From an uncultured Oligoflexia bacterium (GTDB taxonomy: Bacteria > Bdellovibrionota > Bacteriovoracia > Bacteriovoracales > Bacteriovoracaceae), in contig CAJXPQ010000003.1 in the NCBI GenBank assembly GCA_913058265.1, positions 124,001 to 188,000 of the forward strand: DNA of 64,000 nucleotides. Direction: 5' to 3'. Position 1 is the first letter of the stretch. Each line of letters begins with the position of its first letter. A model generated the notes under the pieces. It was not told the DNA's origin. It saw only the letters and a list, made by a program, of their open reading frames with translations, and did no database searches. A program made the translations under genes and the position numbers. Of this stretch, positions 3,936 to 20,399 are shown piece after piece.

Positions 3936-4408
3936 TTAGGCTTATTAAGATAGTTTAAAAGAGTATTTAGGCCTCTTTCTTTATCTCTACGTCTAGGTCT
4001 AACAACTTCTTCTATTTCAGGCTCTCTTGAACCTTTCTTAACAGCAGAAGTCGTTTCTATTTTCTTAGGCTTTATCGTCGGAACATATGGTGTGCGCTCT
4101 TTAGCAATACTAACCTTAAGTGTTCTTCCATCAAGTTGAGTACCGTTAAGTCCTTTTATCGCCTTTAAAGCATTCTCTTTATTTTTCATTTGAATAAAAG
4201 CAACACCGCGAACTTTATTTGATACTTCAACGTATCTAACAGGGCCGTACTCAACAAATATTTTTTTTAGGTCGAACTCAGATTTTTCGTAATTAAGGTT
4301 TCCAACATAAATAGTTGTAATTCCAGAGTTGGTTTCCATGCGGCCCAATCGTTTGATTTGAGGCTCTTTAGAGTCAGTTGATTCTAATGTTTTCGTATAC
4401 TTTTTCAT
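3932..4408 (-). CDS. RRM-domain RNA-binding protein
   Basis: A 158-aa protein with one RNA recognition motif. RNP2 is IYVGNL (residues 33-38) and RNP1 is RGVAFIQM (67-74), with the usual spacing and the helix 'DLKKIFVEYGPV' between them. The C-terminal ~55 residues are basic and low complexity (RPRRRDKER), a likely extra RNA contact. Bacterial single-RRM proteins are usually cold- or stress-responsive RNA binders. The usual aromatic at the first key RNP1 position is Val here (RGVAF), which may weaken stacking. An AAAGGTG ribosome site precedes ATG 4408. Confidence 0.85.
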   Translation of the reverse strand: MKKYTKTLESTDSKEPQIKRLGRMETNSGITTIYVGNLNYEKSEFDLKKIFVEYGPVRYVEVSNKVRGVAFIQMKNKENALKAIKGLNGTQLDGRTLKVSIAKERTPYVPTIKPKKIETTSAVKKGSREPEIEEVVRPRRRDKERGLNTLLNYLNKPN

Positions 4409-4504
4409 AATGCACCTTTGTAAAAAGTCTATTTCTCACACTTAATACAACTTAAGAAGTAGGTATGTAAATCTTATAAATAGAAATAGTAGTTTATTGG
4501 AGGC

Positions 4505-4897
4505 TTAGTCTTCGTAGTTTCGAGCGTATTCAATTATGAATTTCTTGATTTCTTTATCTGAGATTTCATCTTCTTCAACAATATCAGCTATATATGAAGC
4601 AATCTCTCTCCTATTTAAAATAGGAAGGTAGAGTTTTTGACCAGGCTCTAGCTTTGTAAGGTCACTGTAGCTGAGACCATTTTTCCACATCGTCAGATGA
4701 ACTGGGTTGAGATGTTTATTCTTGACCTTGTTTCCATAGATATTATGAATTTGATAACTATTTAAAATTTGCCCTAGAGTTTCACCTTTTTTAACAATAT
4801 GGACTAAGGAGCGCTGCTTTGCCTCGAACTCAAGATACGAGTTGGCCATGGTTGAGAGTGATAAAGTGAATAGAGTTGCGATAAGTACAATTTTCAT
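4505..4897 (-). CDS. secreted LysM-domain protein
   Basis: A 130-aa protein with signal peptide MKIVLIATLFTLSLSTMA and one LysM-like module (~residues 32-95). The module opens 'VHIVKKGETLGQIL' and closes 'LEPGQKLYLPI', both classic LysM edges. The middle is longer than the usual ~45 residues. The last 35 residues are acidic and helical. It probably binds peptidoglycan in the periplasm; no catalytic domain is attached. The ribosome site AAAGGTC precedes ATG 4897. It stands alone, divergent from the lipocalin gene. Confidence 0.75.
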   Translation of the reverse strand: MKIVLIATLFTLSLSTMANSYLEFEAKQRSLVHIVKKGETLGQILNSYQIHNIYGNKVKNKHLNPVHLTMWKNGLSYSDLTKLEPGQKLYLPILNRREIASYIADIVEEDEISDKEIKKFIIEYARNYED

Positions 4898-5054
4898 AAG
4901 ACCTTTATCGGCAAAATAAAAATAACTTTAAGTGAAAACGCTGGGTGGAACTTCTCAAGTATGCTCGGAGCTAACGAGCTTACAGCATCCTATCTACCTT
5001 TTCTGTACAATTAAAGTCTACTTCTTAGTTATAAGCATCTGGCATGTCCTAGGG

Positions 5055-5060
5055 TATGCT
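5055..5060 (+). promoter_or_regulatory. -10 element, leaderless arrangement before the lipocalin
   Basis: TATGCT ends exactly 6 nt before ATG 5067, so the transcript would start at or next to the A of ATG. There is no Shine-Dalgarno sequence between them. The -35 is poor (TAAGCA at 17-nt spacing). The call depends on the same spacing recurring at five other ATG starts in this window. Confidence 0.4.
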
Positions 5061-5066
5061 GTATTT

Positions 5067-5576
5067 ATGAAAATCATATTACTAATATTTCTTGTTATGG
5101 GGTGCTCTGTGGGAAAACCTATTAGAACAATTGAGAGTGTCAACTTAGATAAATTTCTAACCAAATGGTATGTTATCGCAGGTCGACTGACTTATTTTGA
5201 GAAAGGTGCTCATAATGCAGTCGAAGATTACTCATGGGCAGAAAATAAAGAGCATATAAAAATTAATTTTTATTTTAATAAGGATGACTATAGCGGTGAA
5301 GTGAAGAGCATACCTCAAAAGGCTTGGGTGTATAACACAACTTCAAATGCCCACTGGAAAGTGAGACCATTTTGGCCGCTAAAATTAGATTATATAATCC
5401 TCGACATTGCCGAAGATTACTCATGGACTGCTGTAGGTGTTCCGAATCAAAACTATCTTTGGATTATGGCGAAAGATTGGAAAATGAGTGATGAGAAACT
5501 TCAGGGAATCATTAAGAGATTAAATAATATTGATTATTCAACAAAAGATATTATTCGCGTTCCTCAGAAGTGGTAA
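5067..5576 (+). CDS. Blc-type lipocalin lipoprotein
   Basis: The start is taken at ATG 5067, not further upstream, because MKIILLIFLVMGCS is a complete lipoprotein signal with lipobox VMGC. The mature protein has bacterial lipocalin signatures: 'NLDKFLTKWYVIAGR' (GxW region, with Thr replacing Gly before Lys-Trp) and 'NYLWIMAKDW' near the end. Bacterial Blc proteins are outer-membrane lipoproteins that bind fatty acids or lysophospholipids, often under stress. A second, unlipidated lipocalin lies at 19884. The 3' end overlaps the convergent PLA2 gene by 26 nt. The function of this copy is inferred. Confidence 0.85.
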   Translation: MKIILLIFLVMGCSVGKPIRTIESVNLDKFLTKWYVIAGRLTYFEKGAHNAVEDYSWAENKEHIKINFYFNKDDYSGEVKSIPQKAWVYNTTSNAHWKVRPFWPLKLDYIILDIAEDYSWTAVGVPNQNYLWIMAKDWKMSDEKLQGIIKRLNNIDYSTKDIIRVPQKW

Positions 5577-6030
5577 GGTAATCTGAAAGATTATTAGCAC
5601 AGTGATAAGCAGGCTTTCCAATAATTCTTAGTGCACGGTATAGGTTTCTCGCCCATTTAAGGCAATGTACTTTGTTTTCATCCTTAAGGTCACAAGCTTT
5701 TTCCATTCCATTTAAAAAGTTCATATCACAAGTTTTTTGTGAGAAGCCATTTGACGCTGGTTCATTGTGGTAGCAGAGATCATGTTGAATACAGCTTGAA
5801 TAAAAGATTTCTTTGTATCCACCTGTTGGGCCTGAGCATCCATTATAAAATTGTGTTTCGTTATGACTATTTTTATAGAAGCATGCCCTTGCAGGAATTG
5901 GAATCTTTGATTTGGGACAAAGATGTCCGCGCACAACAGATCCACTTCGCTTGATACAGCTTTCAAGTAAAAGATCTTTTGCATAAGTCTGTGTTGAAAA
6001 TACAATAAAAAGAAGTATTAAGAACTTCAT
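5551..6030 (-). CDS. secreted phospholipase A2-like enzyme
   Basis: A 159-aa protein with signal peptide MKFLILLFIVFSTQTYA. The segment 'SCIQHDLCYHNE' carries the PLA2 active-site pattern C-x-x-H-D-x-C with catalytic His83 and Asp84. 'CSGPTGGYKE' just before it resembles the calcium loop. Several further cysteines suggest disulfides. Prokaryotic secreted PLA2 hydrolyses the sn-2 ester of phospholipids, which would attack membranes of another cell. The start lies 2 nt after the yebC stop with no ribosome site of its own, so it is probably translationally coupled to yebC. It is a plausible T2SS substrate, but that is not shown. Confidence 0.8.
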   Translation of the reverse strand: MKFLILLFIVFSTQTYAKDLLLESCIKRSGSVVRGHLCPKSKIPIPARACFYKNSHNETQFYNGCSGPTGGYKEIFYSSCIQHDLCYHNEPASNGFSQKTCDMNFLNGMEKACDLKDENKVHCLKWARNLYRALRIIGKPAYHCANNLSDYLTTSEERE

Positions 6031-6032
6031 TA

Positions 6033-6752
6033 TTATTCAGTATCTTCTATGTTGGTGTAAACAGCAACGACGTCTTCATCATCATCTAAGTAGGCTTGAA
6101 GCTTTTCTATTTGTTCCATCGTTTCCGCATCAGCCACCTTCGTAGTTGTAGGAATTCTTTCAAGCCCAGCTTCTTCTGGGGATGTTCCAAGTTCTTGCAG
6201 TTTATTCTGAATACTTCCAAATGAGTCCATTGGTCCAATGATCTCAAATAAATTATCTTCTAGCTCTATATCTTCTGCTCCTGCATCGATCATCTCTAAA
6301 GTGAAGTCATCTTCATCTAGCTCTCCTTGAGGAACAAGAAAAACTGCTTTTCTATCAAAGATAAACTCTAGTGATCCGTCTTTTCCAAGAGTACCACCAC
6401 TTTTATTAAAATAACTTCTAACGTTTGAAACAGTTCTTACAATATTATTTGTAGAGCCTTCAACAAAAACAGCAATACCGTTAGGCCCATAGCCCTCATA
6501 AGTTACATCTTCATAACCTTCGGAATCACCACCAAGACCTTTTTTAATCGCTCGCTCAACATTGTCTTTAGGAACATTAAACTTACGACATCTTTCAAGA
6601 GCAATTTTAAGAGAGAAGTTTGTATCAGGATCTCCACCTCCACCACTTTTAACTGCCTTAGCAACATCATAAAGTGCTTTAGTAAAAACTTGACCTCTTG
6701 CTTTGTCAGCAGCGCCTTTTTTGACGGCAATCTTGGCTGATTTTCTTCCCAT
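6033..6752 (-). CDS. yebC: YebC/PmpR family regulator (TACO1 family)
   Basis: A 239-aa protein matching the family along its length: 'MGRKSAKIAVKKGAADKARG' at the N-terminus, 'NVERAIKKGLGG', 'YEGYGPNGIAVFVEG', and 'RTVSNVRSYFNKSGGTLG'. The central acidic part and the end 'LDDDEDVVAVYTNIED' are also typical. Members were described as DNA-binding regulators; more recent work links several to translation of difficult peptide stretches. In many bacteria yebC lies beside ruvC, but here it precedes a PLA2 gene. An AGGAGCTC ribosome site precedes ATG 6752. Confidence 0.93.
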   Translation of the reverse strand: MGRKSAKIAVKKGAADKARGQVFTKALYDVAKAVKSGGGGDPDTNFSLKIALERCRKFNVPKDNVERAIKKGLGGDSEGYEDVTYEGYGPNGIAVFVEGSTNNIVRTVSNVRSYFNKSGGTLGKDGSLEFIFDRKAVFLVPQGELDEDDFTLEMIDAGAEDIELEDNLFEIIGPMDSFGSIQNKLQELGTSPEEAGLERIPTTTKVADAETMEQIEKLQAYLDDDEDVVAVYTNIEDTE

Positions 6753-6893
6753 TATGAGCTCCTAAAATGACTTGTTTTCTTGATACGGTAAGCAAAAAAT
6801 TTTATAAGGACTTAGTATAGAAGTCAAGAAAGGGGTTTATGACAAGTTGCAACTAAGTCTTAGTATTGAATTTATTTCCTAAACTGTATTTGA

Positions 6894-6913
6894 TTTTCTA
6901 TCATAATAGAAAA
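6894..6913 (+). promoter_or_regulatory. 8-bp inverted repeat touching the ribosome site of the SDR gene
   Basis: TTTTCTAT-CATA-ATAGAAAA is a perfect 8-bp inverted repeat with a 4-nt loop. Its right arm runs into the ribosome site AAAGGA just before ATG 6923. It could be an operator or an RNA hairpin that limits ribosome access. No U-tract follows, so it is not a terminator. Confidence 0.35.
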
Positions 6914-6922
6914 GGATAAATC

Positions 6923-7693
6923 ATGGAAAATAAGTGGGCGCTCATAACAGGTGCAACTTCTGGAATAGGTGAGGCGACTGCCATTAAATTGGCGGCTGAA
7001 GGAGTTAACCTTTTTATCTGTGGACGTAGACTTGAAAGATTAAATAGTTTGAAAATGAAAATTCAAAATGACTATCAGGCGAATGTTGATGTTCAGTTGC
7101 TATCATTTGATATTCAAGACCGCACTCAGATAAAGGATATTTTTTCGAGTCATAAAGAAGAACTCGCAAGGGTCTCTATTCTTGTGAATAATGCGGGGCT
7201 TGCTCGCGGTGTAGATAAGGTAGATGAAGCCGATATTGATGATTGGGAACAGATGATTGATACCAATGTTAAAGGTCTTCTTTATATGACAAGGTTTATG
7301 CTTCCTATTCTTAAAGATCATGGGGGTGCAGATATCATAAATATTGGTTCTGTTTCAGGAAGATGGACATATCCTGGAGGTGCAGTTTATTGTGGAACTA
7401 AGCATGCTGTTCGCGCAATCAGTGAAGGTATAAGACAGGATCTTTGTGGATACAATATTAAAGTCTGTTGTATTGAACCTGGACTTGTACGAACTGAGTT
7501 CTCTCAAGTTAGACTAGAAGATAAGGATAAAGCTGATGCAGTTTATGCAGGTGTAAAAGCTTTAACTGCGACTGATATCGCCGACTCAATTGTTTGGACA
7601 TTAAAAAGACCCGCCCATGTTAATATTCAAGAAATGGTTATCTTTCCTACTGACCAGGCATCCATAACTCAAGTAAACAGAGAAAAAATATGA
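6923..7693 (+). CDS. short-chain dehydrogenase/reductase (YdfG-like)
   Basis: A 256-aa classical SDR. The cofactor loop is TGATSGIGEATA (from residue ~10), and NNAGLA is present. The catalytic region 'INIGSVSGRWTYPGGAVYCGTKHAV' provides the Ser and the Y-x-x-x-K pair. 'CIEPGLVRTEFS' and a C-terminal 'ALTATDIADSIVWTL' match the NADP-dependent 3-hydroxy acid dehydrogenase subgroup (YdfG-like). The Arg pair after strand 2 (CGRRLERL) suggests NADP(H). It overlaps the next gene by 4 nt (ATGA), so the two are an operon. The substrate is unknown. Confidence 0.9.
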   Translation: MENKWALITGATSGIGEATAIKLAAEGVNLFICGRRLERLNSLKMKIQNDYQANVDVQLLSFDIQDRTQIKDIFSSHKEELARVSILVNNAGLARGVDKVDEADIDDWEQMIDTNVKGLLYMTRFMLPILKDHGGADIINIGSVSGRWTYPGGAVYCGTKHAVRAISEGIRQDLCGYNIKVCCIEPGLVRTEFSQVRLEDKDKADAVYAGVKALTATDIADSIVWTLKRPAHVNIQEMVIFPTDQASITQVNREKI

Positions 7694-8526
7694 AAATACT
7701 TTTACTACTTTTTTATTTTTCAACATCTGCCTATGGTAGCTTTATAGGACAGGATATTTTCCTGGATCAAGATGAAATGAAGCCGTTGAAGTCTGTACCA
7801 CTGGATTATCAAGTTATTGTTTCAGATTTTATCCAAAAATTTAGTGGTGAGGTTTTGGCCAGGGGTGGTGAGCTTAAAGTTGAGTTTGATTTAAAAAACT
7901 CTAGAGTTAATGCTTTCGCTAGTAGGGATATGGGTAAGTGGAAAATTACATTTCTTGGAGGATTGATAAAGCATTCTAAAATGAATAGCGAGGTTTTTAC
8001 TGCTATTTTATGTCATGAGTTAGGGCATCATATAGGCGGAGCTCCATATAAATTCCCTGATGATGAAGTGAGAAGCTGGGTTTCTGTTGAGGGGCAATCA
8101 GATTACTATGCCAGTAATATCTGCTTGAAAAGAATTTTTGAATTCCAGGATAATCAATCATTCTTAAAAGCAATAAAAATCTCTCCATTTATGAAAGAAG
8201 CGTGTGAAGCCCATACTTCAAATGAGTCTGAAAAATATATTTGTCTTCGCAGTACTTATATATCTCGTGAGCTAGGTTTATTTCTGGCAACACTTGGGCA
8301 AGGAAGACGTGGCAGGCGAGGTAGAATTCCTCGTTTTGATACTCCTGATACATCACAAGTTAGCAGTACGACGATTCAACACCCAAAAGCTCAGTGCCGG
8401 CTCGACAGTTATTTTCAAGGCTCAATATGTGAGCAATACTATTTCAGGCTTCCAAATGAGCAAAACTGCCCACAAAGAGAGCTAAAGTACTCTGGTTCAA
8501 GGCCGCTATGCTGGTATGCGCCCTAG
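7690..8526 (+). CDS. secreted HExxH metallopeptidase-like protein
   Basis: A 278-aa protein with signal peptide MKILLLLFYFSTSAYG. Residues 109-113 are HELGH, a zinc HExxH site, and Glu134 in 'SVEGQSDYYA' is placed as the third ligand, as in M48-type (gluzincin) peptidases. The rest differs from standard M48 proteins: a ~100-residue N-terminal domain, and a basic Gly/Arg patch (GRRGRRGR, ~residues 204-211) before a Cys-containing tail. The ATG overlaps the SDR stop, so they are cotranscribed. Its target is unknown. It may be exported to the periplasm or by the T2SS. Confidence 0.7.
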   Translation: MKILLLLFYFSTSAYGSFIGQDIFLDQDEMKPLKSVPLDYQVIVSDFIQKFSGEVLARGGELKVEFDLKNSRVNAFASRDMGKWKITFLGGLIKHSKMNSEVFTAILCHELGHHIGGAPYKFPDDEVRSWVSVEGQSDYYASNICLKRIFEFQDNQSFLKAIKISPFMKEACEAHTSNESEKYICLRSTYISRELGLFLATLGQGRRGRRGRIPRFDTPDTSQVSSTTIQHPKAQCRLDSYFQGSICEQYYFRLPNEQNCPQRELKYSGSRPLCWYAP

Positions 8527-8627
8527 TTTCTCTTCGTAAATACAATAGGTTAGATGATTTAAAGACAGGACATATGAATTTTTCATTTAGTTGAAAAAAA
8601 TGCTTCTGTTTTTGGACGAGTCAATAT

Positions 8628-8633
8628 TATAAT
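8628..8633 (+). promoter_or_regulatory. -10 element for the cold-shock gene
   Basis: A consensus TATAAT lies 54 nt before ATG 8687. The best -35 at usable spacing is poor (TTCTGT). The ~45-nt untranslated leader between it and the AAGGAAG ribosome site could form cold-responsive RNA structure, as in other csp genes. That role is inferred. Confidence 0.4.
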
Positions 8634-8686
8634 AATACTTAAGTTCGGTGGATTAGCCGGATCAATTTTAATAAGGAAGAAGTAAC

Positions 8687-8881
8687 ATGAGTACAGGTAC
8701 AGTAAAGTTTTTTAATGAAGGTAAAGGTTTTGGTTTTATTACTCCAGATGACGGAGGAAAGGATCTTTTCGTACACATTTCAGCTGTTGAATCAGGTCAA
8801 TTAAATGATTCTGACAAAGTTGAGTACGAAGTAGGCGAAGGTCAGAAAGGACCATGTGCTGTCCAAGTAAGAAAAATCTAA
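8687..8881 (+). CDS. CspA-family cold-shock protein
   Basis: A 64-aa single cold-shock domain. It begins '[20 protein letters not shown]' and has RNP1 (GKGFGFI) and RNP2 (DLFVHIS). It ends '[10 protein letters not shown]'. Such proteins bind single-stranded RNA and DNA and melt mRNA structure. The length is typical. An AAGGAAG ribosome site precedes the ATG, and a strong terminator follows, so it is a single-gene transcript. Whether it is cold-induced cannot be seen. Confidence 0.95.
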
Positions 8882-8917
8882 TATAGTTTTAATTATATAT
8901 ATAGTTTTAATTATATA
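8882..8917. repeat. 18-bp tandem duplication after the cold-shock gene
   Basis: An AT-only-plus-one-G unit containing TATAGTTTTAATTATATA is present twice in direct tandem (period 18) between the cold-shock stop codon and its terminator. It looks like a simple local duplication in the 3' untranslated region. Confidence 0.6.
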
Positions 8918-8932
8918 TAGAGTTTTTTGAAG

Positions 8933-8958
8933 AGGGAGTTTTTTAACTCCCTTTTTTT
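8933..8958 (+). terminator. intrinsic terminator of the cold-shock gene
   Basis: The stem GGGAGTT (8934-8940) pairs with AACTCCC (8945-8951) around a TTTT loop, followed by seven Ts. This is a textbook Rho-independent terminator. Confidence 0.9.
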
Positions 8959-8961
8959 GTG

Positions 8962-8967
8962 TACACT
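8962..8967 (+). promoter_or_regulatory. -10 element, leaderless arrangement
   Basis: TACACT ends 6 nt before ATG 8974, with no ribosome site between. No good -35 is visible because that region is the T-tract and stem of the preceding terminator. It is supported mainly by the same spacing at other genes in this window. Confidence 0.35.
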
Positions 8968-8973
8968 TTTATA

Positions 8974-9303
8974 ATGATACTATCAATTCTAAAAGTTTTT
9001 ACAGCTGCAATTCTTATTTCATTCGTATCTTGGCTTTCAGGAACACGGACACAACTTGCTGGCTTTCTTACGGCATTCCCATTAACAACCCTGATCGCTC
9101 TTGCTTTTTCTAAGTTGGAATGGAATAGCTCTGAACAATCAGTTGAATATGCGAAGAGTGTCTTTATTGCCATCCCTGTAAGTCTTCTTTTCTTTGTTCC
9201 ATTTTTACTTGCAAGTAAGCTTAACTTGAGTTTTTGGACCTGCTATATTGTTGGGATATTGTTATTAGGAGTAGGATACTTCATTCATAAGGCCGTTGTA
9301 TAG
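8974..9303 (+). CDS. small integral membrane protein (DUF3147-like)
   Basis: From ATG 8974 the protein is 109 aa. A GTG at 8959 is in frame but lies inside the preceding terminator's T-tract, so ATG is preferred. Three or four transmembrane helices are visible, with 'SWLSGTRTQLAGFLTAFPLTTLIAL' in the first half. The pattern of a polar Gly/Thr/Arg turn followed by a Pro-containing helix is like the DUF3147 family. The function is unknown. There is no ribosome site. Confidence 0.55.
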   Translation: MILSILKVFTAAILISFVSWLSGTRTQLAGFLTAFPLTTLIALAFSKLEWNSSEQSVEYAKSVFIAIPVSLLFFVPFLLASKLNLSFWTCYIVGILLLGVGYFIHKAVV

Positions 9304-9306
9304 GGT

Positions 9307-9335
9307 TTGCAAAGTATGAATGTTAACAATTATAC
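9307..9335 (+). promoter_or_regulatory. promoter of the CHI-like/DUF2878-SDR pair
   Basis: TTGCAA (9307-9312) and TTATAC (9330-9335) are separated by 17 nt. The start point would lie about 27 nt before ATG 9370, leaving room for the AGAAGGA ribosome site. Confidence 0.45.
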
Positions 9336-9369
9336 CGATTAGATAAGATAATTGCTAGAAGGATACTTT

Positions 9370-9852
9370 ATGAAAATACTAATTTTATGTTTAATGATGA
9401 CTGCTCAGGTAGTCCACGCAAATAAGCTTCAGCTATTAGGTGAGGGAAGATTAACTTTCTTATTTTTTAAGGTTTATGATGCCAAACTTTTTGCTGAAAA
9501 AAAATCAACTGAGTTTGATCAAAAGCTTCGCTTAGAAATTAGTTATCTGCGCTCTCTTAAGGGTGATGATATTTACGATAGAACACTGACAGAGTGGAAA
9601 GGCATTGGGCTAAGTGAAGAGCGAATTAATGCCATTAAGCCTTTAATCAAAGATAAATTTCCTAATGTTGATGATGGAGATCAAATTATTGCTGAATATG
9701 ATCCTGTCGATGGGTTAAAGGTTGTTCTTAATAAAAAGAAGGTTCTTATCACGAGTAGTGATGTTACCTTTGCAAAAGACTTTATGGGGATATGGCTCTC
9801 ACCTGAAACCAGTGAGAAGAAACTACGGGCCAAACTCTTTGGAGTTGAATAA
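9370..9852 (+). CDS. chalcone isomerase-like domain protein, periplasmic
   Basis: The start is at ATG 9370, after AGAAGGA, because it gives a clean signal peptide (MKILILCLMMTAQVVHA). The body is the bacterial chalcone isomerase-like fold: 'LLGEGRLTFLFFKVYDAKLF' early and 'FAKDFMGIWLSPETSEKKLRAKLFG' at the end. Bacterial members are not expected to act on flavonoids; they are found with DUF2878, SDR, cfa and DUF1365 genes in light or singlet-oxygen stress clusters. The stop overlaps the next start by 1 nt (TAATG), a tight operon. The biochemical role is unknown. Confidence 0.8.
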   Translation: MKILILCLMMTAQVVHANKLQLLGEGRLTFLFFKVYDAKLFAEKKSTEFDQKLRLEISYLRSLKGDDIYDRTLTEWKGIGLSEERINAIKPLIKDKFPNVDDGDQIIAEYDPVDGLKVVLNKKKVLITSSDVTFAKDFMGIWLSPETSEKKLRAKLFGVE

Positions 9853-11249
9853 TGATATTTGCAAAGATTATTTTACTGAATGTTTTTTGGTATGCTGCTG
9901 TATACTTTGGTCCATCAGAATTTGGATTTGTACTATTCCCCATTGCACTCATTTTAACATTTATAAATTTAAAAGTTTATAAACCTGCTGTTGCAAAATC
10001 TCATTATTTTTTTACCCTAGCTTTTTTTATAGTTTATGGTTTTCTTCAAGACTATATCGTTCTTGAATTAGGTCTAATTAATTATAACCAAAGTAGCTTT
10101 CCTTTTTGGCTAACAAGTATGTATGTGGTTTTTATTTGTTATTACGGAGATATTTTTAATAAGTTTCAAAAGCTTCATGCTGGTATTCTTTTTATTGTAG
10201 GGGCCCTGGGGGGTGTCGCTGCCTATTTCGGTGGTGCAAAAATAGCAGGACTTACGATTTATGATTCTACTATTCTTTATTATTGGGGAATAGTTGCTCT
10301 TTCCTGGGGAGTATTTTTTCCCCTAAGTATAAAAATATTTTATGAGGGATTTATGTGGAATAAAATTTTAGATGCATCAATTTATTATAGTTTTGATAAT
10401 TCAGGCTATCTTCGACATGAGAAAAACTTTCCTAAGAACACTTTACCTGCTGAAGGTAAGAATGTTCTTATTACTGGAGGTACATCAGGTATTGGTTTGA
10501 ATTGTGCTGAACATCTGGCCGCAGATAAGGCGAATGTTTTTATTACCGGACGTAGCATTGAGCGAGGTAACTCAATTGCTTCTAATAATGAGTCTATTCA
10601 ATTTAAACAATTGGATATGGCCGATTGGGAAGATATAGACCAGTCAATTTCAGATTTGCCTGTCATGGACCTTGTTGTTCTTAACGCAGGTGGTATGCCA
10701 GAGAGTTTTATAACCAACAAGCAAGGCTATGAGTTGCAAATGGCCTCTCAACTTTTTGGGCACTACTTTCTGCTTAAAAAGTTAAAAGAAACTAGTAAAT
10801 TAAGTCATGGAGCTAGAGTTGTTTGGGTAACTTCTGGTGGGATGTATCTGGCCTCTTTATCACTGGCCAATCTTAAAGAGAATGATAAATATGATAAAGT
10901 TTCCACATATGCTAATGTTAAGCGAGGACAAGTTAGCTTATTAAACAAATTATCTTCAGAGTTCGTAGATCAAAACATAACTGCCATGCACCCTGGTTGG
11001 GTAGACACTCCTGGTGTTGAGAGTGCCATAGGGGGTTTCTATGAAAAAATGCATGGTAAGCTTAGAACTCCCGATCAAGGTTCAGATACAATACTATGGC
11101 TGCTGAGAACAACAGATCTCCCTATAAAGGGTGGTTTATACTTCGACCGTAAAAATGTATCAACTAATTTTTTTCCACATATCAAGGTTAAGCAGGGCGA
11201 TGTGGAGCAATTGTGGCAGTGCATGAATGACGAGTATTCCAAGCTTTAG
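9852..11249 (+). CDS. DUF2878 membrane domain fused to an SDR dehydrogenase
   Basis: A 465-aa fusion. Residues ~1-165 are five or six transmembrane segments resembling DUF2878 ('AKIILLNVFWYAAVYFG', 'FWLTSMYVVFICYYGD'). Residues ~200-465 are a soluble SDR domain: cofactor loop ITGGTSGIGLNCA, NAGGMPES, 'VVWVTSGGMY' with the catalytic Ser, and Y-A-N-V-K as the YxxxK pair. 'MHPGWVDTPGVE' is also typical. The SDR half looks closest to the DHRS12-like group. In other proteobacteria DUF2878 and the SDR are separate neighbouring genes, so the fusion supports a shared task. It is coupled to the CHI-like gene. Confidence 0.8.
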   Translation: MIFAKIILLNVFWYAAVYFGPSEFGFVLFPIALILTFINLKVYKPAVAKSHYFFTLAFFIVYGFLQDYIVLELGLINYNQSSFPFWLTSMYVVFICYYGDIFNKFQKLHAGILFIVGALGGVAAYFGGAKIAGLTIYDSTILYYWGIVALSWGVFFPLSIKIFYEGFMWNKILDASIYYSFDNSGYLRHEKNFPKNTLPAEGKNVLITGGTSGIGLNCAEHLAADKANVFITGRSIERGNSIASNNESIQFKQLDMADWEDIDQSISDLPVMDLVVLNAGGMPESFITNKQGYELQMASQLFGHYFLLKKLKETSKLSHGARVVWVTSGGMYLASLSLANLKENDKYDKVSTYANVKRGQVSLLNKLSSEFVDQNITAMHPGWVDTPGVESAIGGFYEKMHGKLRTPDQGSDTILWLLRTTDLPIKGGLYFDRKNVSTNFFPHIKVKQGDVEQLWQCMNDEYSKL

Positions 11250-11351
11250 AATTTACATCTTTACAGTAGCTTAACCCCTAGGTAGAATTTGTTTAATTTT
11301 TCTTTTGAGGAACAATGAAGTGTCTTAGGAGAAAACGATTGGAGCTACACG

Positions 11352-11819
11352 TTGGATCATTCAGAAATAATTGGTAAATTAGTAATCTCATCAAATTTTG
11401 GAATAGGAACTGTCGTCTCGGTTGAGGATATGACAAATAGTGGTAGAGATTTCTTGGTCATTGAATGTCCTGGAAATGTAAAAAACTTTATTCCAGCGGA
11501 CGATACTGCAAGCTATCGTTTCTTGAGTACTGAAGTTGATATTGGAAAGATTATTTCTAAGTTAGAAAAGACGAGATTAAAGCCGAAAGATTATGGCTCA
11601 AAAAAAGAGCGAATTGAGTACTTTAAAAAAACATCAAAGATGCAAGATATAAATATTATCGCTGATTTATTACTAGAACTTATTTCTCTAGACGATAGAA
11701 GCTCTGCAGAAGATCTTATTATGAATAAATTTGTTGATTCTATTGCACTTGAGCATTCAATAATAACTAAAGCTAAAGAAGAAGACTCTAAAGTCATTAT
11801 TCTTGCAGCAATTAAATAG
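11352..11819 (+). CDS. CarD/CdnL-like transcription factor
   Basis: A 155-aa protein. Residues ~5-60 resemble the RNA-polymerase-interacting domain of CarD/CdnL ('GKLVISSNFGIGTVVSVED', 'FLVIECPGNVKNFIPADD'). The remainder is helical, as in CdnL ('KKERIEYFKKTSKMQDINIIADLLLELISLDD' keeps the R/K..Y..K...D...IA..L..L pattern). CarD-type proteins stabilise open complexes at promoters. Conservation is modest, so it may be a divergent paralogue. The start is taken as TTG 11352, with GGAG about 8 nt upstream. It is followed closely by the carbonic anhydrase gene. Confidence 0.7.
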   Translation: MDHSEIIGKLVISSNFGIGTVVSVEDMTNSGRDFLVIECPGNVKNFIPADDTASYRFLSTEVDIGKIISKLEKTRLKPKDYGSKKERIEYFKKTSKMQDINIIADLLLELISLDDRSSAEDLIMNKFVDSIALEHSIITKAKEEDSKVIILAAIK

Positions 11820-11832
11820 CTAGGAGGTTAAT

Positions 11833-12378
11833 TTGGATATCAGTAAACTTTTAGATAATAATAAAAGCTGGACCAAAGAGATGACAAAGGGGCAAGAAAA
11901 CTTCTTTAAAAATCTATGTGAAGGTCAAGCCCCTCAAGCTTTGTATATTGGATGCTCTGATAGTAGAGTTTCACCGGAGCTCTTTTTATCCTTGAATCCA
12001 GGTGATTTTTTTATTCACAGAAATATTGCAAATCAAGTTATACCTTCTGACAATAACCTTAGTAGCATATTAGAATTCGCAATAGACGTAATTAAGGTCG
12101 AGAATATAATTGTGTGTGGTCACTATGGTTGCGGAGGTGTTGAAGCAGCTTTGAGTGAACTTGAGCCTAATCTGTGTGGTGTTTGGCTTGCAGATTTACA
12201 TGCTCATCTAAAGGCTCAAAAAGTTACCGATTGGAATGAGGCCGTAGAGGTCGGTGTTAAATACCAAACAGCTAAGCTTGTTGAGGTTCCCGTAGTTAAG
12301 AGAGCAATAAATAATAAACAAATTCTTATTCATACTTGGATTTTTGATATGAGCACTGGTGAAGTTATTTCACTTTAA
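11833..12378 (+). CDS. beta-carbonic anhydrase
   Basis: A 181-aa protein, slightly shorter than E. coli Can (220 aa). The zinc ligands are Cys41 (in CSDSRVSPE, with the Asp43/Arg45 dyad), His97 and Cys100 (in CGHYGCGG). It interconverts CO2 and bicarbonate in the cytoplasm. The start is a TTG at 11833 immediately after the strong ribosome site AGGAGG; no better start is in frame. It is 13 nt downstream of the CarD-like gene and probably cotranscribed. Confidence 0.93.
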   Translation: MDISKLLDNNKSWTKEMTKGQENFFKNLCEGQAPQALYIGCSDSRVSPELFLSLNPGDFFIHRNIANQVIPSDNNLSSILEFAIDVIKVENIIVCGHYGCGGVEAALSELEPNLCGVWLADLHAHLKAQKVTDWNEAVEVGVKYQTAKLVEVPVVKRAINNKQILIHTWIFDMSTGEVISL

Positions 12379-12390
12379 AATACCACATTA

Positions 12391-15300
12391 CTAATCATCC
12401 AACTCTTCATATAGTTTAATTTGATCTAAGTATGTTTGAATTTCTCGCGCTCTAATGCTTATATTTGGAGTACCAGCACCATTTCTTATCTGTGAAGTAG
12501 AACCATTGTAGATATAATATAAAAATTGTGACCTATTATCTTCGTTTATATTATTATGTCTTCCTTCCATCCTTTTTAGTTCTGAACTCATCTCTTTGAG
12601 AACAATCATCGTTGCTAATGCTGCATTTCTGGGCTCTGTTAAATTATTTTCATTAATTTCAGGGTAATACTTTTCTGTAAATGAAGTCACATTTTTAATT
12701 TGTGTCAGTCCTCTGGAATTATCAGAGTCATTTCCATCGATCACTTTTTTTGTACTGACAGCAGTTTGACTAATGAATTGTGCGTACTTATCCAAAAGCC
12801 AAGAAGACAGACCCGTAAGAGCGCCTCCAGGTCCTACAGTAGGGATAGAGGCCAAACTTCTTGATATTGAAGTTATCTTTCCTCCTTCTTTTAACTGGTA
12901 GCGTTCTTCCGTTCCAAAGCCACTCTCAACGCCAAAAACGGCATAGGCCATTTGTGCAAGGTCATTATACTCGTTATTTGTTAACCCTAATTTTTCAATC
13001 AGTTCTCTTTTGCTATCTTCTAGAGTTTGAATATATTCTAGGGCGATTGGGTTTCCAGCATGAACAGGATTCATGACAACAAGGTCAATGTCTTTAATTT
13101 TCTCATTTTCTAAAGGAGAGTAGTAATAGTCTCTATTACAAATTTCTCCGGTTGAGCATCGAGATCTAGATGTAGGAGTAAATATAAGCTGACCATCAAC
13201 AACTTTCATTCTACTTACTCTTGTTCCGTCTGCGTTCTCTTCTTCAGGAAGAATGTAGACAGGACAACCTTGATCTGGGAATTCGTTCTTGTATGATTCG
13301 AAATCCTCTTGAGTAAGGTTTAGACAGCCATTGGTGGTTTTATTATCTTCATCATTCCCGTTATTGTACATGGTGTTTCTATGTTCGAGACCAACTGGTG
13401 TTTGATGCATTGCCATAACTGTTTCATATTGGTTATCTGCATTTAGAGGTCCATTAAAGGCCCCTTTTTCAGTTACGAGGGCAAGTAAATTATTATTATA
13501 ATATTCATAATAATCATCATTTGTACTATCTCTAAATTTATAGCTATAGAAAATTCCTGCTGATGTTTTTCCGTTGGTCGCTCGACGACCATCATTATAT
13601 AATTCCTCTAAAAAGATCGTTCTTTTATCACCACTATTAGCACCTAATAAAATTTCTCTTTCAAATAAAACAACTCCTGATTTGTTGTAAACAAAAAGCA
13701 TATGTTTCTTTTTATCTATAATTGTGTAGTAATCACAATCTTCTTTAGTTTTGAAGTTTTTGTGAAACTCAATAATGAGATTTTTATCATCCAAGGCATT
13801 AAGTTGCTCTTCAACATTTTTATATTCTCCATAGTCAATCATATCTGAAGGAGTTCTTTCTAGTCTTTCAGTGATGGGTAAACCTGTAAGAGTACTATAT
13901 CTTTGATCATTATCTTGAAAATTTCTTTCTCCGTTAGTCATGGCGGAATACCACGAGTTTGTATACTGTCTCGATTGAGGCACACTACTAGGTGGTGTTA
14001 AGTTGTTTGCCTCCTGAAAATTTTCTATGGCAGAAGTTTGATCTGTAAGTGGAATTGATCTTAATGTAAGAGGGTTTATCACTTCTGTATCAAGAATAAT
14101 CGCTTTCTTTCCCTCGATTAGAGCTTGCGCCACTATTTGCCTCTCTTCTTGATCAGTGCTTGCGTTAGTTGTTATCAAAGCACTTATTCGACTTGTAATT
14201 TCATCGTCACTTAATCTCGTTCTATTCTCGAGCACATTATTTGTATCTACTTGTGAATGTGAATTTGTATGAAGTTTGTTTTCATAAACATATGTTTTGT
14301 TATTTTCAATTGCTGAAGCTATGGCGTTATTTCTTTGCTCTGTAGATAATTCTGTATACCTTTCAATTGGAGCTTTTTGCTCAACACTTTCTGTTGTGGG
14401 GTAAGATGTAAGTCCTACTATGGATCTATCTATAGCCTGACCAGTGCTGGTATCATATAGTGCACCTCTAAATTCAAAAGATTTTTGTTTGATCTCACCA
14501 TCATTTGCAGCGATAAGACTATAAAGAAATTCGTCATTGAGATCCTTTAAGACCTCTTCTTTATTTGGACCATTATCAATGCCTGCTCCAAAATCTGGAA
14601 TTAGTTTTCTGTAATCATTATATTTACGTTTTAAATTTTCAAACATAGCGACATGTTGAAGATTAAGTCGTCTGTCCATGGCCGTAATTGATGAGGAATT
14701 CATAATACTTTTATATATTTTTTCACCATTAGCTTTTAAATCGCTCAAGTTATATGATTCTGGGAGGTAATAAATTTTATCTTGATATTGAAAGTTTCTT
14801 TCTCGAGAATCAAGAGCTTGAGCAATAGCAAGTAATAGCTCCTTGTTCCCGATAAGGTCTTCTTTGCTCAGAAAATAGGGGTATCTATCAAGAACTGATT
14901 GAGCAAGCTTATCAAAATATTCATCTTGATACGGGAGCAATTCAATTTGAATAATTTTCTCCTGTCCGTCACTACCAATTATCGAGATCTCTTCTGTTGC
15001 AATTGCAGGAAGTATGATGGGTTCTCTTTGGTCTTCTTGATTTATAACTGGCGGGTCTTCCGATGGCATTCTTGAATCATTTGGAATATACTTTTTACCC
15101 ACATGAAGCCAAAAGTCATCATACTTTAAAACCTCTGTCTTATTGAAATCTTGCATATCCTCTATGAAGTTTAATATTGTATTCTCCAATATAGCTTTTT
15201 GATTGTTTTCACCACATTGATTTAATATCATATCCTTACAAGGTCTAGACAAAGGGAGCTTTTCAACAGCTATTGCCAACTCGCTTGTTAAGCTTTCAAT

Positions 15301-15897
15301 TTGCTGCTCAAATGAGCTGATTGAGTCCTTAATTTTCCTATTTTTCATGGAGGAGTTTATCACTTTCGTAAAGTTGAGGATGGATTGATCTTTATTTGTA
15401 TGTTTAAAGAGCCTATGATCAAGAAGTCCATCGGATCTTACGCCTTCTTTTTCGGCCAAAATGGATAGTAATTTTATATCCGACATTTGAATAATGTATT
15501 TTTTTCTCTTTTTAGTATCTGTGATTTTATTTTGTTCGTTTAATATATCTCGAACATAAGGAAGAATTCTTGCAAGTGCAGTTCGAGATAATTTATTTTT
15601 TCGATAGAGCTCTCTTGCTTTTATAAACTCTGGATCTTGGTTTGTATCTATACTCGTGAGAATTTCATCAATTCTATTCTCTAGTTCAAAACTTACAGTA
15701 TCTTCTTTACCTTGTGAGGATGCCCAAGCGAGTCTATGAAGAGTAAGCTTTCCTTGAAGTTTTAATAGCTTTTTTAATTGGGGATGATTAATCTCATTTT
15801 CCATCAGGGTCTTGAGCGCCTCATTACATTCTTCTAGGGTTTCAGCTATTGCCAAACCCTGAAATAATATAAATATAGTAAGTACGATTACCTTCAT
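12391..15897 (-). CDS. giant secreted protein with L,D-transpeptidase-like and lytic-transglycosylase-like regions
   Basis: The start is taken at ATG 15897 because it opens directly with a signal peptide (MKVIVLTIFILFQGLAIA); an in-frame ATG at 15930 would add 11 residues. The mature protein is ~1150 aa. Residues ~20-710 are mostly helical and unrecognised. Residues ~720-890 look like a YkuD-type L,D-transpeptidase: 'YYTIIDKKKHMLFVYNKSG', then 'MAMHQTP' (His831) and 'TTNGCLNL' (Cys858), matching the H...(S/T)xGCxxL catalytic pattern. Residues ~960-1150 look like a lysozyme-fold transglycosylase: 'YAVFGVESGFGT' (Glu991), 'RGLTQIKN' and 'YIYNGS'. Both regions act on peptidoglycan in known families. 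It ends 12 nt after the convergent carbonic anhydrase stop. Confidence 0.7.
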   Translation of the reverse strand: MKVIVLTIFILFQGLAIAETLEECNEALKTLMENEINHPQLKKLLKLQGKLTLHRLAWASSQGKEDTVSFELENRIDEILTSIDTNQDPEFIKARELYRKNKLSRTALARILPYVRDILNEQNKITDTKKRKKYIIQMSDIKLLSILAEKEGVRSDGLLDHRLFKHTNKDQSILNFTKVINSSMKNRKIKDSISSFEQQIESLTSELAIAVEKLPLSRPCKDMILNQCGENNQKAILENTILNFIEDMQDFNKTEVLKYDDFWLHVGKKYIPNDSRMPSEDPPVINQEDQREPIILPAIATEEISIIGSDGQEKIIQIELLPYQDEYFDKLAQSVLDRYPYFLSKEDLIGNKELLLAIAQALDSRERNFQYQDKIYYLPESYNLSDLKANGEKIYKSIMNSSSITAMDRRLNLQHVAMFENLKRKYNDYRKLIPDFGAGIDNGPNKEEVLKDLNDEFLYSLIAANDGEIKQKSFEFRGALYDTSTGQAIDRSIVGLTSYPTTESVEQKAPIERYTELSTEQRNNAIASAIENNKTYVYENKLHTNSHSQVDTNNVLENRTRLSDDEITSRISALITTNASTDQEERQIVAQALIEGKKAIILDTEVINPLTLRSIPLTDQTSAIENFQEANNLTPPSSVPQSRQYTNSWYSAMTNGERNFQDNDQRYSTLTGLPITERLERTPSDMIDYGEYKNVEEQLNALDDKNLIIEFHKNFKTKEDCDYYTIIDKKKHMLFVYNKSGVVLFEREILLGANSGDKRTIFLEELYNDGRRATNGKTSAGIFYSYKFRDSTNDDYYEYYNNNLLALVTEKGAFNGPLNADNQYETVMAMHQTPVGLEHRNTMYNNGNDEDNKTTNGCLNLTQEDFESYKNEFPDQGCPVYILPEEENADGTRVSRMKVVDGQLIFTPTSRSRCSTGEICNRDYYYSPLENEKIKDIDLVVMNPVHAGNPIALEYIQTLEDSKRELIEKLGLTNNEYNDLAQMAYAVFGVESGFGTEERYQLKEGGKITSISRSLASIPTVGPGGALTGLSSWLLDKYAQFISQTAVSTKKVIDGNDSDNSRGLTQIKNVTSFTEKYYPEINENNLTEPRNAALATMIVLKEMSSELKRMEGRHNNINEDNRSQFLYYIYNGSTSQIRNGAGTPNISIRAREIQTYLDQIKLYEELDD

Positions 15898-15961
15898 ATT
15901 ATCTCTATCGGATGATATGGATTGATACATGAGTTTTTTGCTTAGGTTGCTGTCTAAACTT

Positions 15962-15990
15962 TTGACACCACCTTTGATGATATATAGTAT
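15962..15990 (+). promoter_or_regulatory. tag promoter, leaderless arrangement
   Basis: TTGACA (15962-15967), a 17-nt spacer and TAGTAT (15985-15990) end exactly 6 nt before ATG 15997. There is no ribosome site. This is the best -35/-10 pair among the leaderless candidates. Confidence 0.65.
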
Positions 15991-15996
15991 CTGTTT

Positions 15997-16596
15997 ATGA
16001 AAAACAGGTGTCTGTGGCTTAAGCTTTCTAATAAGTTATATGTTGATTATCATGACTCTGAGTGGGGAAGGCCTGTTCATGACGATCAATTACTTTTTGA
16101 AATGTTAATTTTAGAGGGGGCGCAAGCGGGACTTAGTTGGGAAACCGTACTGAATAAGAGAGAGCACTATAAAAAAGTATTCCTGGACTTTGATATAGTG
16201 AAAGTATCAAAAATGTCTCAAAAAAAAGTTGAAAAATTACTCCAAGACCCGGGCATTATTCGAAACCGACTTAAAGTTGAATCAACGATTTCTAATGCAA
16301 AAATATTTTTACAAATACAGAAAGAATATGGATCATTTGATAAATACCTTTGGGCCTTTGTTAAAAATAAGCCAATCATAAATCACTTTGAATCATTAAA
16401 AGACTACCCTTCAAGAACTGACATAAGCGATATCATATCAAAAGATATGAAAAAGAAAGGTTTACGTTTTGTTGGAAGCACTATTGTCTACGCTTATATG
16501 CAGGCGACTGGGATGGTGCAAGATCATGGAGTTGATTGTTACCTCTATCAAAAGAAATTTAGAACACGGAGAGCCAATTTGGTGTCTAAAAAATAG
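15997..16596 (+). CDS. tag: DNA-3-methyladenine glycosylase I
   Basis: A 199-aa protein, the usual length for Tag. It has the N-terminal zinc Cys (MKNRCLWL), 'YVDYHDSEWGRPVHDDQLLFEML', and 'EGAQAGLSWETVLNKRE', whose Trp and Glu lie in the base pocket. C-terminal 'MVQDHGVDCYLYQ' supplies the other zinc ligands. It excises 3-methyladenine in base-excision repair. It is divergent from the large peptidoglycan-active protein. Translation probably begins at the first nucleotides of the mRNA, since the -10 is 6 nt before ATG. Confidence 0.95.
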   Translation: MKNRCLWLKLSNKLYVDYHDSEWGRPVHDDQLLFEMLILEGAQAGLSWETVLNKREHYKKVFLDFDIVKVSKMSQKKVEKLLQDPGIIRNRLKVESTISNAKIFLQIQKEYGSFDKYLWAFVKNKPIINHFESLKDYPSRTDISDIISKDMKKKGLRFVGSTIVYAYMQATGMVQDHGVDCYLYQKKFRTRRANLVSKK

Positions 16597-18851: not shown

Positions 18852-18857
18852 ACTCGC

Positions 18858-19817
18858 ATGAATAACTATAGTATCCAAGTAGTTTCACGTATGACTGGTA
18901 TAGGAATTCACACTCTTAGAGCTTGGGAGCGTAGGTACCAAGCAGTAGTCCCTGCCAGGCTAGATAATGGTCGACGTGCTTATAGTGAAGTCGATGTTGA
19001 GAAACTGCAACTTCTGGCCGAATTAACAAGGTTTGGGCATTCCATTAGTGATATCGCTAATCATGATATTGAGAAGTTAAAAAATGTATTAGAGCAAGTC
19101 AGCTCAAGTATTAATAATATTGAATCTTCATCTAACGATGCATCAGATAAAACTATTGATAGTGAATTCTCTCGTAGTGCCGAGGAAATTGTACAGCATA
19201 TCGTTATGGCAATTTCTGGCTATAAGCTTGATATTGTTTCTCATGAACTGCATAAGCTCAGGTACTTAACAGAACCAAAAGTACTCGTTTTTGATATACT
19301 TATTCCCTTAATTCGTGACATTGGTCTAAGAGTTGACCGTAAGGAGCTAAGTATTGCTCAAGAGCATGCGCTAACTTCTATTCTAAAGTCCCATATTGGA
19401 ACATACCTCTATCAAAGTTATGAGAGTAAAAAACATGCTAAAAATGTAAAAGTTTTATTTGCTACTCCTCAGGGGGATTTACATGAATTTGGAATCCAAC
19501 TGGCCGCTATGCTTGCTGTAGAGCATGATTTAGAATTTTATGTATTAGGACCCAACTTGCCGGCCCAAAGTCTAATTGAAGCTTCTGTTGGGCTTAACGC
19601 AGACATTATAATTTTAGGAACTACAGGCTCTACTCAATCTCCATCTGCCTATGAACTAAACAAATATTTTGATGATATCCTCATAAATCTTGGTGCGAGG
19701 CAGCAATTGTGGGTTGGTGGTACGGGCGTTTATGATTATGATGCTTATAAAGATGTTCCAAACTTTAAGGCGATCCTTAGTCTTGAACAACTTAATGAAG
19801 AGTTGACCATAGTCTAA
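18858..19817 (+). CDS. MerR-family regulator with cobalamin-binding domain (CarH/LitR-like)
   Basis: A 319-aa protein. Residues 1-75 are a MerR winged helix ('VVSRMTGIGIHTLRAWERRY'). Residues ~105-190 are the helical cap of B12-binding regulators, with Glu169-His170 in 'IAQEHALTS' matching E141-H142 of Thermus CarH. Residues ~197-315 are a cobalamin Rossmann domain, with the lower-ligand motif D-x-H-x-x-G as DLHEFG (His209). CarH-type proteins repress in the dark with adenosylcobalamin and release DNA in light. Here the Trp that covers the upper face of B12 (10 residues before the Glu) is Val159, so light sensing may be altered or lost. The next gene is a lipocalin, a common LitR target. Confidence 0.85.
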   Translation: MNNYSIQVVSRMTGIGIHTLRAWERRYQAVVPARLDNGRRAYSEVDVEKLQLLAELTRFGHSISDIANHDIEKLKNVLEQVSSSINNIESSSNDASDKTIDSEFSRSAEEIVQHIVMAISGYKLDIVSHELHKLRYLTEPKVLVFDILIPLIRDIGLRVDRKELSIAQEHALTSILKSHIGTYLYQSYESKKHAKNVKVLFATPQGDLHEFGIQLAAMLAVEHDLEFYVLGPNLPAQSLIEASVGLNADIIILGTTGSTQSPSAYELNKYFDDILINLGARQQLWVGGTGVYDYDAYKDVPNFKAILSLEQLNEELTIV

Positions 19818-19883: not shown

Positions 19884-20399
19884 ATGAAAAAAATTACTTT
19901 AATTTCAATGTTTTTAATGTCATTCCAATTATTTGCAGCAAAGCCACTACCAACTGTGGATTATGTAGACTTAGATAAGTTTGTAGGGAAGTGGGTTACT
20001 ATAACCTCATTACCACAAATCTTTACTAGAGGTTGCTTGTACCAAACAGCAGATTATGCAATCAATGAGGAATCAAACGTTAGTGTTTTGAATACTTGTA
20101 TAAAAAGAAATAAGTTAAAGAAAATTTGGGGTGTTGCAACTGTTGATGATTTAACAACCAATGCAGATCTTACAGTTCACTTTCGCTTATTCTGGGGACT
20201 TCTAAACGTAGAGGGTGACTATAAAGTTATTGCTCTTGATGATGAGTACAAATACATAATGGTTGGGGGAGAGGATAGAAAATCTCTTTGGATCATGTCT
20301 CGAGATAAAACTATTCCTGCAGAAGTCCTGGAAGAGTATAAAGATATCGCTGAAGGTTATGGATTTAATACAAAAAGGTTATCAGACTCTATTTTTTAA
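19884..20399 (+). CDS. periplasmic Blc-type lipocalin, not lipidated
   Basis: The start is at ATG 19884 after the strong ribosome site GGAGG. The signal peptide MKKITLISMFLMSFQLFA has no lipobox Cys, unlike the lipocalin at 5067. 'VDLDKFVGKWVTITSLPQ' carries the lipocalin GxW motif and 'KYIMVGGEDRKSLWIMSRD' the C-terminal signature. Two cysteines (GCLYQ, NTCIK) could form a disulfide. It probably binds lipids in the periplasm. It follows the B12-binding regulator and overlaps the downstream convergent pseudogene by 11 nt. Confidence 0.85.
   Translation: MKKITLISMFLMSFQLFAAKPLPTVDYVDLDKFVGKWVTITSLPQIFTRGCLYQTADYAINEESNVSVLNTCIKRNKLKKIWGVATVDDLTTNADLTVHFRLFWGLLNVEGDYKVIALDDEYKYIMVGGEDRKSLWIMSRDKTIPAEVLEEYKDIAEGYGFNTKRLSDSIF

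Follow-up and report, generated by a model that had tools for sequence, protein, structure and literature searches.

A DUF2878-SDR fusion adjoining a CHI-like gene recurs among the Bacteriovoracaceae

DUF2878 and the CHI-like family Chalcone_3 are orphan members of photo-oxidative stress clusters. What, then, is a DUF2878 domain doing in one polypeptide with an SDR, directly behind a CHI-like gene? The question is raised by two adjacent genes of an uncultured Oligoflexia bacterium of the family Bacteriovoracaceae, located within a 64,000-nucleotide stretch of DNA that we analysed as a whole and refer to as the window (Table 1). Fusions of this Halobacteriovorax type have been kept, often next to genes thought to counter photodamage to membrane lipids, and offer a handle on the role of both orphan parts.

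The first-pass annotation of this DNA held that a single polypeptide combines a DUF2878-like membrane part with an SDR and that its start overlaps the stop of the CHI-like gene; the Pfam matches and the TAATG overlap bear this out. Residues 4–158 of the fusion frame match DUF2878 (PF11086; 54.3 bits against a cut-off of 27, profile positions 3–154 of 154), so that the assignment of the membrane half, on which the reading had been staked beforehand, stands, and residues 203–390 match adh_short (PF00106; 60.1 bits against 26.6). The upstream product matches PF16036 with 53.1 bits (cut-off 27) and a family model with 189.6 bits and, judging by eye from its signal-peptide-like N-terminus, is probably periplasmic. 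GGAG lies directly 5′ of the fusion ATG; given this and the one-base overlap, the two genes are likely to be translationally coupled. The source genome holds exactly one DUF2878 match, that of the fusion. None of the 277 matching plasmid records covers 80% of the fusion in one place, positions 3900–21000 of the window contain no Rfam match, and a PDB sequence search with the CHI-like protein returned none at E 1.

Table 1. Features of the gene pair and of the lipocalin and regulator genes discussed in the text (positions within the window)
Feature	Position	Strand	Remarks
CHI-like protein (Chalcone_3, PF16036)	9370..9852	+	160 aa; first gene of the pair
DUF2878-SDR fusion frame	9852–11249	+	465 aa; Pfam
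Fusion start codon	9852..9854	+	one-base overlap with the CHI stop TAA 9850–9852 (TAATG)
DUF2878 half	9852..10346	+	residues 1–165; six predicted membrane helices
Junction	10353..10430	+	residues 168–193; motif LD-x5-SFD-x2-G-x2-RH-x3-F from residue 173
Classical-type SDR half	10440..11249	+	TGGTSGIG; R234 (NADP-type); NAG 278–280; Q300/S328/Y353/K357
LIPO1 lipocalin	5067..5576	+	PF08212, 81.3 bits, cut-off 24; lipobox-like LVMGC by eye
B12-MerR (CarH/LitR-like)	18858..19817	+	MerR_1 and B12-binding_2 over cut-off; B12-binding below (28.4 against 32.1)
LIPO2 lipocalin	19884..20399	+	PF08212, 116 bits, cut-off 24; 66 bases after the MerR gene

The trivial explanation, that an assembly or frame artefact has joined two adjacent genes, can practically be dismissed. 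One genome (G084, locus L047) does carry the two halves in overlapping frames, but 16 aligned genomes share one open frame with the same junction, and the recurrence of the window's fusion as the same fused frame in 15 other genomes (37–53% identity) argues against chance or assembly error. Across 95 genomes of the same family, DUF2878 is found in 36, at 37 places, 18 of which lie in frames of 429–495 aa and 19 in frames of 166–226 aa; one of the short frames (G058), interrupted by the edge of its contig, has the look of a truncated fusion. By this distribution, the fusion is an old one. Sixteen of the 18 long frames align end to end as one family with 77 invariant columns. Over the phylum, DUF2878 is matched in 80 of 368 genomes (76 over the cut-off), and frames of at least 429 aa occur in 20 genomes, all within the window's own family, which accounts for 44 of the 80, as against none of the 36 matching genomes outside it; G097 and G099, which likewise have long frames, were left out of the locus comparison below. 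Among named records, this fusion is found mainly in Halobacteriovorax and Bacteriovoracaceae. Two contigs labelled SAR324, one with a frame open from within the DUF2878 half onward (L102) and the other with a fused gene broken by stops in the frame read (L134), may have been transferred, mis-binned or poorly sequenced.

In the remaining 2 of the 18 long frames (G050, G081), DUF2878 is joined to a different SDR. The SDR of this second (type-2) fusion, of 426 aa (L036, 115–1395; L037, 8087–9367), is most like the SDR encoded at 6923–7693 of the window, which is nearest to YdfG, and no cluster genes were found beside it at either locus. In an SDR tree of 63 rows, 19 fused proteins, 12 standalone ones and one split gene form a clade (98/74) nested within a broader group of standalone SDRs that spans several phyla. 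The fused label requires 8 changes on this tree, which makes a single fusion, with the DUF2878 half lost several times afterwards, likely, albeit not proven; the rows L115 and L118, scored as standalone, reach the edges of their contigs and could be fusions cut short there. In the DUF2878 tree, 18 fused proteins, 6 standalone ones and the split L047 likewise group together (99/97), with the second fusion placed elsewhere. Given that the two trees agree, at least two separate joinings of DUF2878 to an SDR are the most likely history. DUF2878/SDR pairs that overlap without being fused also exist, at L055 and, with the SDR gene first, in L141, a Calditrichia MAG. A standalone DUF2878 on the minus strand of L038 (2522–3052) ends in the junction letters of the fusion, YEGLLWNK, which suggests a fusion minus its SDR half. 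Possible further fusions and links are a 626-aa frame from Myxococcales (L139, 6936–8816), whose C-terminal part is an SDR of the fused type, and a 686-aa frame from Actinomycetes (L148, 5876–8963) that ends in a DUF1365 domain beside a fused-type SDR.

AlphaFold2 models of the full fusion (mean pLDDT 91.6, pTM 0.81) and of DUF2878 alone (mean pLDDT 96.3, pTM 0.88) predict helices at residues 2–19, 25–43, 49–72, 85 to 107 (in two pieces), 110–132 and 138–165, which would leave both ends of DUF2878 on one side; judged by eye, the basic residues, located between helices 2 and 3 as well as at the end of helix 4, fit a cytosolic position. The predicted succession of six helices and an SDR agrees with the earlier proposal that the SDR acts at the membrane. 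Structural comparison of DUF2878 with VIA-align placed the Insig homolog MvINS (4xu4/4xu6) well ahead of the next row (Z 8.2 against 4.0; rmsd 3.1 over 120 residues), in a match that spans residues 45–165 only and has a score in the range, under ~13, that is common for helical bundles according to the warning of the tool. Foldseek with DUF2878 returned 29 weak matches and nothing at E 0.001 or better, the Pfam and PDB profiles contain no sequence link between DUF2878 and Insig, and a PDB sequence search with DUF2878 found none at E 10. We treat a possible Insig-like fold of DUF2878 as a lead only.

The SDR half displays the classical-SDR features TGxxxGxG, NAG, S and Y-x3-K, and TGxxxGxG, R234, NAG, S328, Y353 and K357 are invariant in all 19 fused rows of the SDR alignment. 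The catalytic Asn of the N-S-Y-K tetrad is absent; at position 300, equated by alignment only, there is a Gln, as in 19/19 fused and 27/33 standalone rows, with Asn instead in the three type-2 rows and in each of the 6 operon-SDR rows (5 from Pseudomonadota, and L051). The letters of the junction motif are likewise invariant in the 19 fused rows, each is kept in 19 to 32 of the 33 standalone rows, and the SDRs of the Pseudomonadota operons have no letters at these positions in the alignment. As aligned, therefore, residues 168–193 belong to the SDR family, standalone relatives included, leaving little or no spare linker at the join. The best PDB sequence match of the SDR is 3rd5 (E 3.7e-20), which also matches the predicted model (Z 28.5), as do LPOR entries (Z 25.0–26.9); the best NCBIfam match is PRK06196, with 106 bits, under its cut-off. 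Fused-type SDRs (53 rows together with the standalone ones) are split from the Pseudomonadota operon SDRs by a long branch with 98/100 support, in a tree in which the tool flags long branches among the operon rows. By this tree, the fused SDR does not belong to the subfamily of the SDR neighbour of DUF2878 in the Pseudomonadota operons examined; thus, the fusion is not simply that neighbour joined to DUF2878. DHRS12/SDR40C, to our knowledge without DUF2878, presumably resembles the SDR of the fusion in further motifs beyond its two printed signatures. The latter, given for DHRS12 (SDR40C1) as GGNSGIG and YAQNK in the available excerpt of PMC9859523, differ by one and two letters from GGTSGIG and YANVK of the fusion, the signatures alone being compared.

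Gene neighbourhoods were compared between 18 fusions of the window's type (16 plus L103 and L116, the window counted; two on stretches shorter than 10 kb) and 20 other places in the family with DUF2878 (among them two type-2 fusions; in seven cases the stretch is shorter than 10 kb). A CHI-like gene is nearby in 13/18 fusions as against 0/20 other loci, FAD, DUF1365 and Cfa in 7/18 each as against 0/20, NTF2 in 9/18 as against 1/20, DUF3833 in 6/18 as against 1/20, and photolyase in 3/18 as against 0/20; within ~8 kb, and with the window included, a lipocalin accompanies 7/18 fusions and a B12-MerR gene 4/18, as against 0/20 for both, all these counts resting on family models that were built partly from the counted loci and are thus biased towards genes present in them. 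In L064, FAD, Cfa, SnoaL/NTF2 and DUF3833 are confirmed by Pfam, as is DUF1365 at the corresponding place in G083. The full set of DUF2878, SDR, CHI, FAD, DUF1365, Cfa, NTF2 and DUF3833 is present in L064, L065, L103 and L116, and L057 and L060 lack DUF3833 only; in the latter two, the entire series of genes as far as the fusion begins with a B12-MerR gene. The genus of the window also includes L053, where photolyase, lipocalin, B12-MerR, DUF1295, a second B12-MerR, CHI and the fusion lie together. CHI is not an obligatory partner, being missing from the stretch read around 5 of the 18 fusions. Nine further genomes with the fusion have no DUF1365 match (G043, G007, G016, G053, G065, G071, G073, G076 and G009, some of them only 81–82% complete genomes), and CHI lies near the fusion in 6 of these, being absent in G016, G065 and G076. 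Thus, the fusion, often with CHI, persists without the methylase-oxygenase branch.

The source genome itself has no DUF1365 match. Six matches to the Cfa family (PF02353) include a best one of 35.1 bits over 61–187 of 273 positions (cut-off 27), and, among the matches listed, three exceed the cut-off but are partial, with 31 to 35 bits as against 250–313 for the full copies of relatives; these could conceivably include a distant methylase. DUF3833 also has no match in this genome, an uninformative result given that its control matched nowhere. As DUF1365 is missing and the Cfa matches are partial and weak, the product here is unlikely to be a furan fatty acid. The DUF1295 and photolyase genes of the genome sit elsewhere, away from the pair: two adjacent genes of the cryptochrome/photolyase type occupy 5162–8058 of L166 (on contig C2), and a third photolyase is on C3.

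The first-pass annotation had further suggested that two lipocalins, HMGR and the B12 regulator of the window are dispersed members of the same response. Synteny supports this for the lipocalins and the B12-MerR. LIPO1 has its closest relatives next to the fusion (L041) or next to the pair of CHI and fusion (L044, L045 and L049); the MerR-lipocalin pair recurs in L053; and relatives of the B12-MerR stand first in the full operon of L057 and L060 and adjoin CHI and the fusion in L053. These genes, spread in the window over 15 kb (LIPO1 from 5067, the CHI-fusion pair from 9370, MerR-LIPO2 from 18858), can thus be regarded as putative module members. Synteny does not support it for HMGR: the other neighbourhoods searched (L031–L066, L090–L151 and L155) contain no HMGR match. 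The HMG-CoA reductase itself (21123–23459, minus strand; 344.6 bits) carries a C-terminal APH-type phosphotransferase domain in the same frame (36.9 bits, cut-off 23.2), and an AMP-binding enzyme is encoded at 23885–25078. At the other end, a secreted-looking product of the minus strand (5551–6030), near prokaryotic phospholipase A2 (28.6 bits, cut-off 29.4), overlaps with its end the end of the LIPO1 gene.

Light control of the window genes is suggested by synteny. The product of 18858–19817 matches CarH (5c8d; phmmer E 9.1e-16) and keeps DxHxxG (as DLHEFG) and EH (as QEH). The adenosyl-capping Trp of CarH is the Trp of the Wx9EH motif; the MerR of the window has Val at the position aligned with it, as does, by eye, the product of L053 5101–6123. 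Half-sites TTGTNTA are paired at the MerR promoters of L053, L057 and L113, but the MerR promoter of L060 has none; of the window genes, CHI and LIPO2 have one each, and MerR and LIPO1 lack them. As a shared operator, this motif, chosen post hoc, was rejected as not significant, with at least one copy in 5/24 window controls and 41/254 over all loci. Control by sigmaE-ChrR in this genome was rejected as well: the Cupin_7 gene has as its neighbour a 1025-aa gene, transporter-like by eye, and no sigma factor was recognised from the first 60 residues of its neighbours.

Taken together, these observations lead us to propose that the two-gene unit is a membrane SDR system of a photo-oxidative lipid response, an explanation to which, as a whole, we would give an even chance. 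The CHI-like protein would be periplasmic and probably lipid-binding, and the six-helix DUF2878 would anchor a cytosolic, NADP(H)-dependent SDR of the classical type at the inner membrane, perhaps presenting substrate to it. The pair would belong to a photo-oxidative membrane-lipid response that, in Pseudomonadota, appears to be governed by ChrR-sigma or MerR-family regulators. To judge from the neighbours, the SDR would act on a lipid or isoprenoid damaged by light or oxygen, reducing (or oxidising) one of its carbonyls or alcohols, and CHI and the two lipocalins would carry lipid in the envelope. Since the genome has no DUF1365 and no full Cfa, the reaction would constitute a separable second module, not a step of furan fatty acid synthesis.

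A more prosaic possibility, which we consider rather unlikely but worth keeping in view, is plain anchoring, with the SDR performing a housekeeping reaction on a hydrophobic substrate and the light-cluster neighbours being a functionless inherited context in this genome, from which the greater part of the cluster has disappeared. The lack of DUF1365 and DUF3833 matches (the latter with its uninformative control), the partial and weak Cfa and the remote photolyases fit this interpretation, as do close standalone SDRs that have neither DUF2878 nor CHI in the stretch (L104, L106–L109, L111 and L112; L106 has a lipocalin nearby). Against it speak the one-base overlap of CHI and fusion and the relatives of LIPO1 and B12-MerR that stay within 8 kb; moreover, the cluster is tied to the fused forms and not to other DUF2878 loci, as the distribution of CHI illustrates.

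Two further alternatives concern the role of one half each. Instead of anchoring the SDR, DUF2878 might have an Insig-like fold and serve as a lipid sensor, either controlling the SDR or using it to signal membrane damage. The lead of MvINS over the next structural match is in favour of such a sensor, and so is the altered porin expression of Vibrio cholerae upon loss of VC1123, a DUF2878 protein (excerpt of PMC12971978), but the Z score in the helical-bundle range over residues 45–165 only, the failure of Foldseek at E 0.001 and the missing sequence link to Insig make this improbable. That the substrate is of the isoprenoid, quinone or retinal type, in the manner of LPOR or retinol dehydrogenases, and not a damaged acyl lipid, appears very improbable: LPOR is among the best fold matches, and the DHRS12 signatures resemble those of the fusion (excerpt of PMC9859523), but closeness of SDR folds does not show the substrate, and the neighbours in the full operons are enzymes of the acyl-lipid type (Cfa, FAD and DUF1365 families). 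The preferred reading of a membrane SDR in a photo-oxidative lipid response can be taken further, to an Insig-like DUF2878 that hands oxidised bilayer lipids to the SDR, was welded to it at least twice and, in Bacteriovoracia, works without Cfa/UfaD/UfaO as a stand-alone repair enzyme for photo-oxidised lipids; in this full form, the scenario is speculative and has a slim chance of being correct.

Two independent fusions that involve different SDR subfamilies imply that DUF2878 works with an SDR, whereby the identity of the SDR is changeable and the membrane partner constant. The reduced two-gene form, without DUF1365 or full Cfa, separates this accessory module from furan fatty acid synthesis and, in the source genome, provides a minimal system for a direct biochemical test.

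The same families recur in the annotated clusters of Pseudomonadota. In Aeromonas (L152), the order is MerR-phrB-NTF2-SDR-FAD-DUF1365-cfa-DUF2878-(Trp-rich)-CHI-DUF3833; in Pseudoalteromonas (L153), sigma-ChrR-DUF523-phrB is followed by nearly the same run; and Plesiomonas (L156) is like Aeromonas from the SDR on. A Cupriavidus record also includes lipocalin, DUF1295 and photolyase, and a Burkholderia record holds a looser set of the cluster families. These records bear out the statement of the first-pass annotation that the families are separate neighbours in other proteobacteria: DUF2878, SDR, CHI, cfa, DUF1365, DUF3833 and, in one case, lipocalin are separate genes of the same cluster, with photolyase and ChrR or MerR present in some clusters. 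In the operons of Aeromonas, Pseudoalteromonas and Plesiomonas, DUF2878 adjoins CHI or, in L152, is one small gene apart from it, and photolyase stands at the operon head together with a MerR-family gene (L152) or sigma-ChrR (L153). There are differences as well: DUF2878 and SDR are separate in these operons, with three genes between them, and fused in the window; the best NCBIfam match of the L152 operon SDR is PRK06101 (below the cut-off), in contrast to PRK06196 for the fusion; and only CHI and the fusion remain together in the source genome.

The comparison with functionally characterised systems draws on available excerpts of the cited papers. In R. sphaeroides, furan fatty acids are made by UfaM, UfaD and UfaO, the last a DUF1365 protein, and the operon genes RSP1087-1089 are not needed for these products (PMC7380195), so that the accessory genes in clusters of this kind may have other targets. 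Genes of the Cfa, FAD and DUF1365 types, likened to this pathway by family and not by orthology, lie near 7 of the 18 fusions, all in relatives, whereas DUF1365 is absent and the Cfa-family matches are only partial in the source genome. A chrR mutant of S. maltophilia upregulates a lipocalin, two Cfa and inner-membrane genes more than 100-fold (PMC11832516), cluster genes go down together in a riboflavin experiment with Aeromonas salmonicida (PMC10012899), and blue light acts via ChrR and MerR in V. cholerae (PMC5241685). VC1123 belongs to the regulon of the MerR-type PhrR, and its loss phenotype comprises porin expression and colonisation (PMC12971978); it has DUF2878 in common with the fusion, and an SDR is not mentioned in the excerpt of that source. 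The PhrR of PMC5343134, by the excerpt of that paper, is a TyrR-family protein and not the MerR-type PhrR. Our literature search on DUF2878 found no report of a fusion in the excerpts available. The DUF2878-SDR fusion of the Bacteriovoracaceae is a new architecture inside a known kind of cluster.
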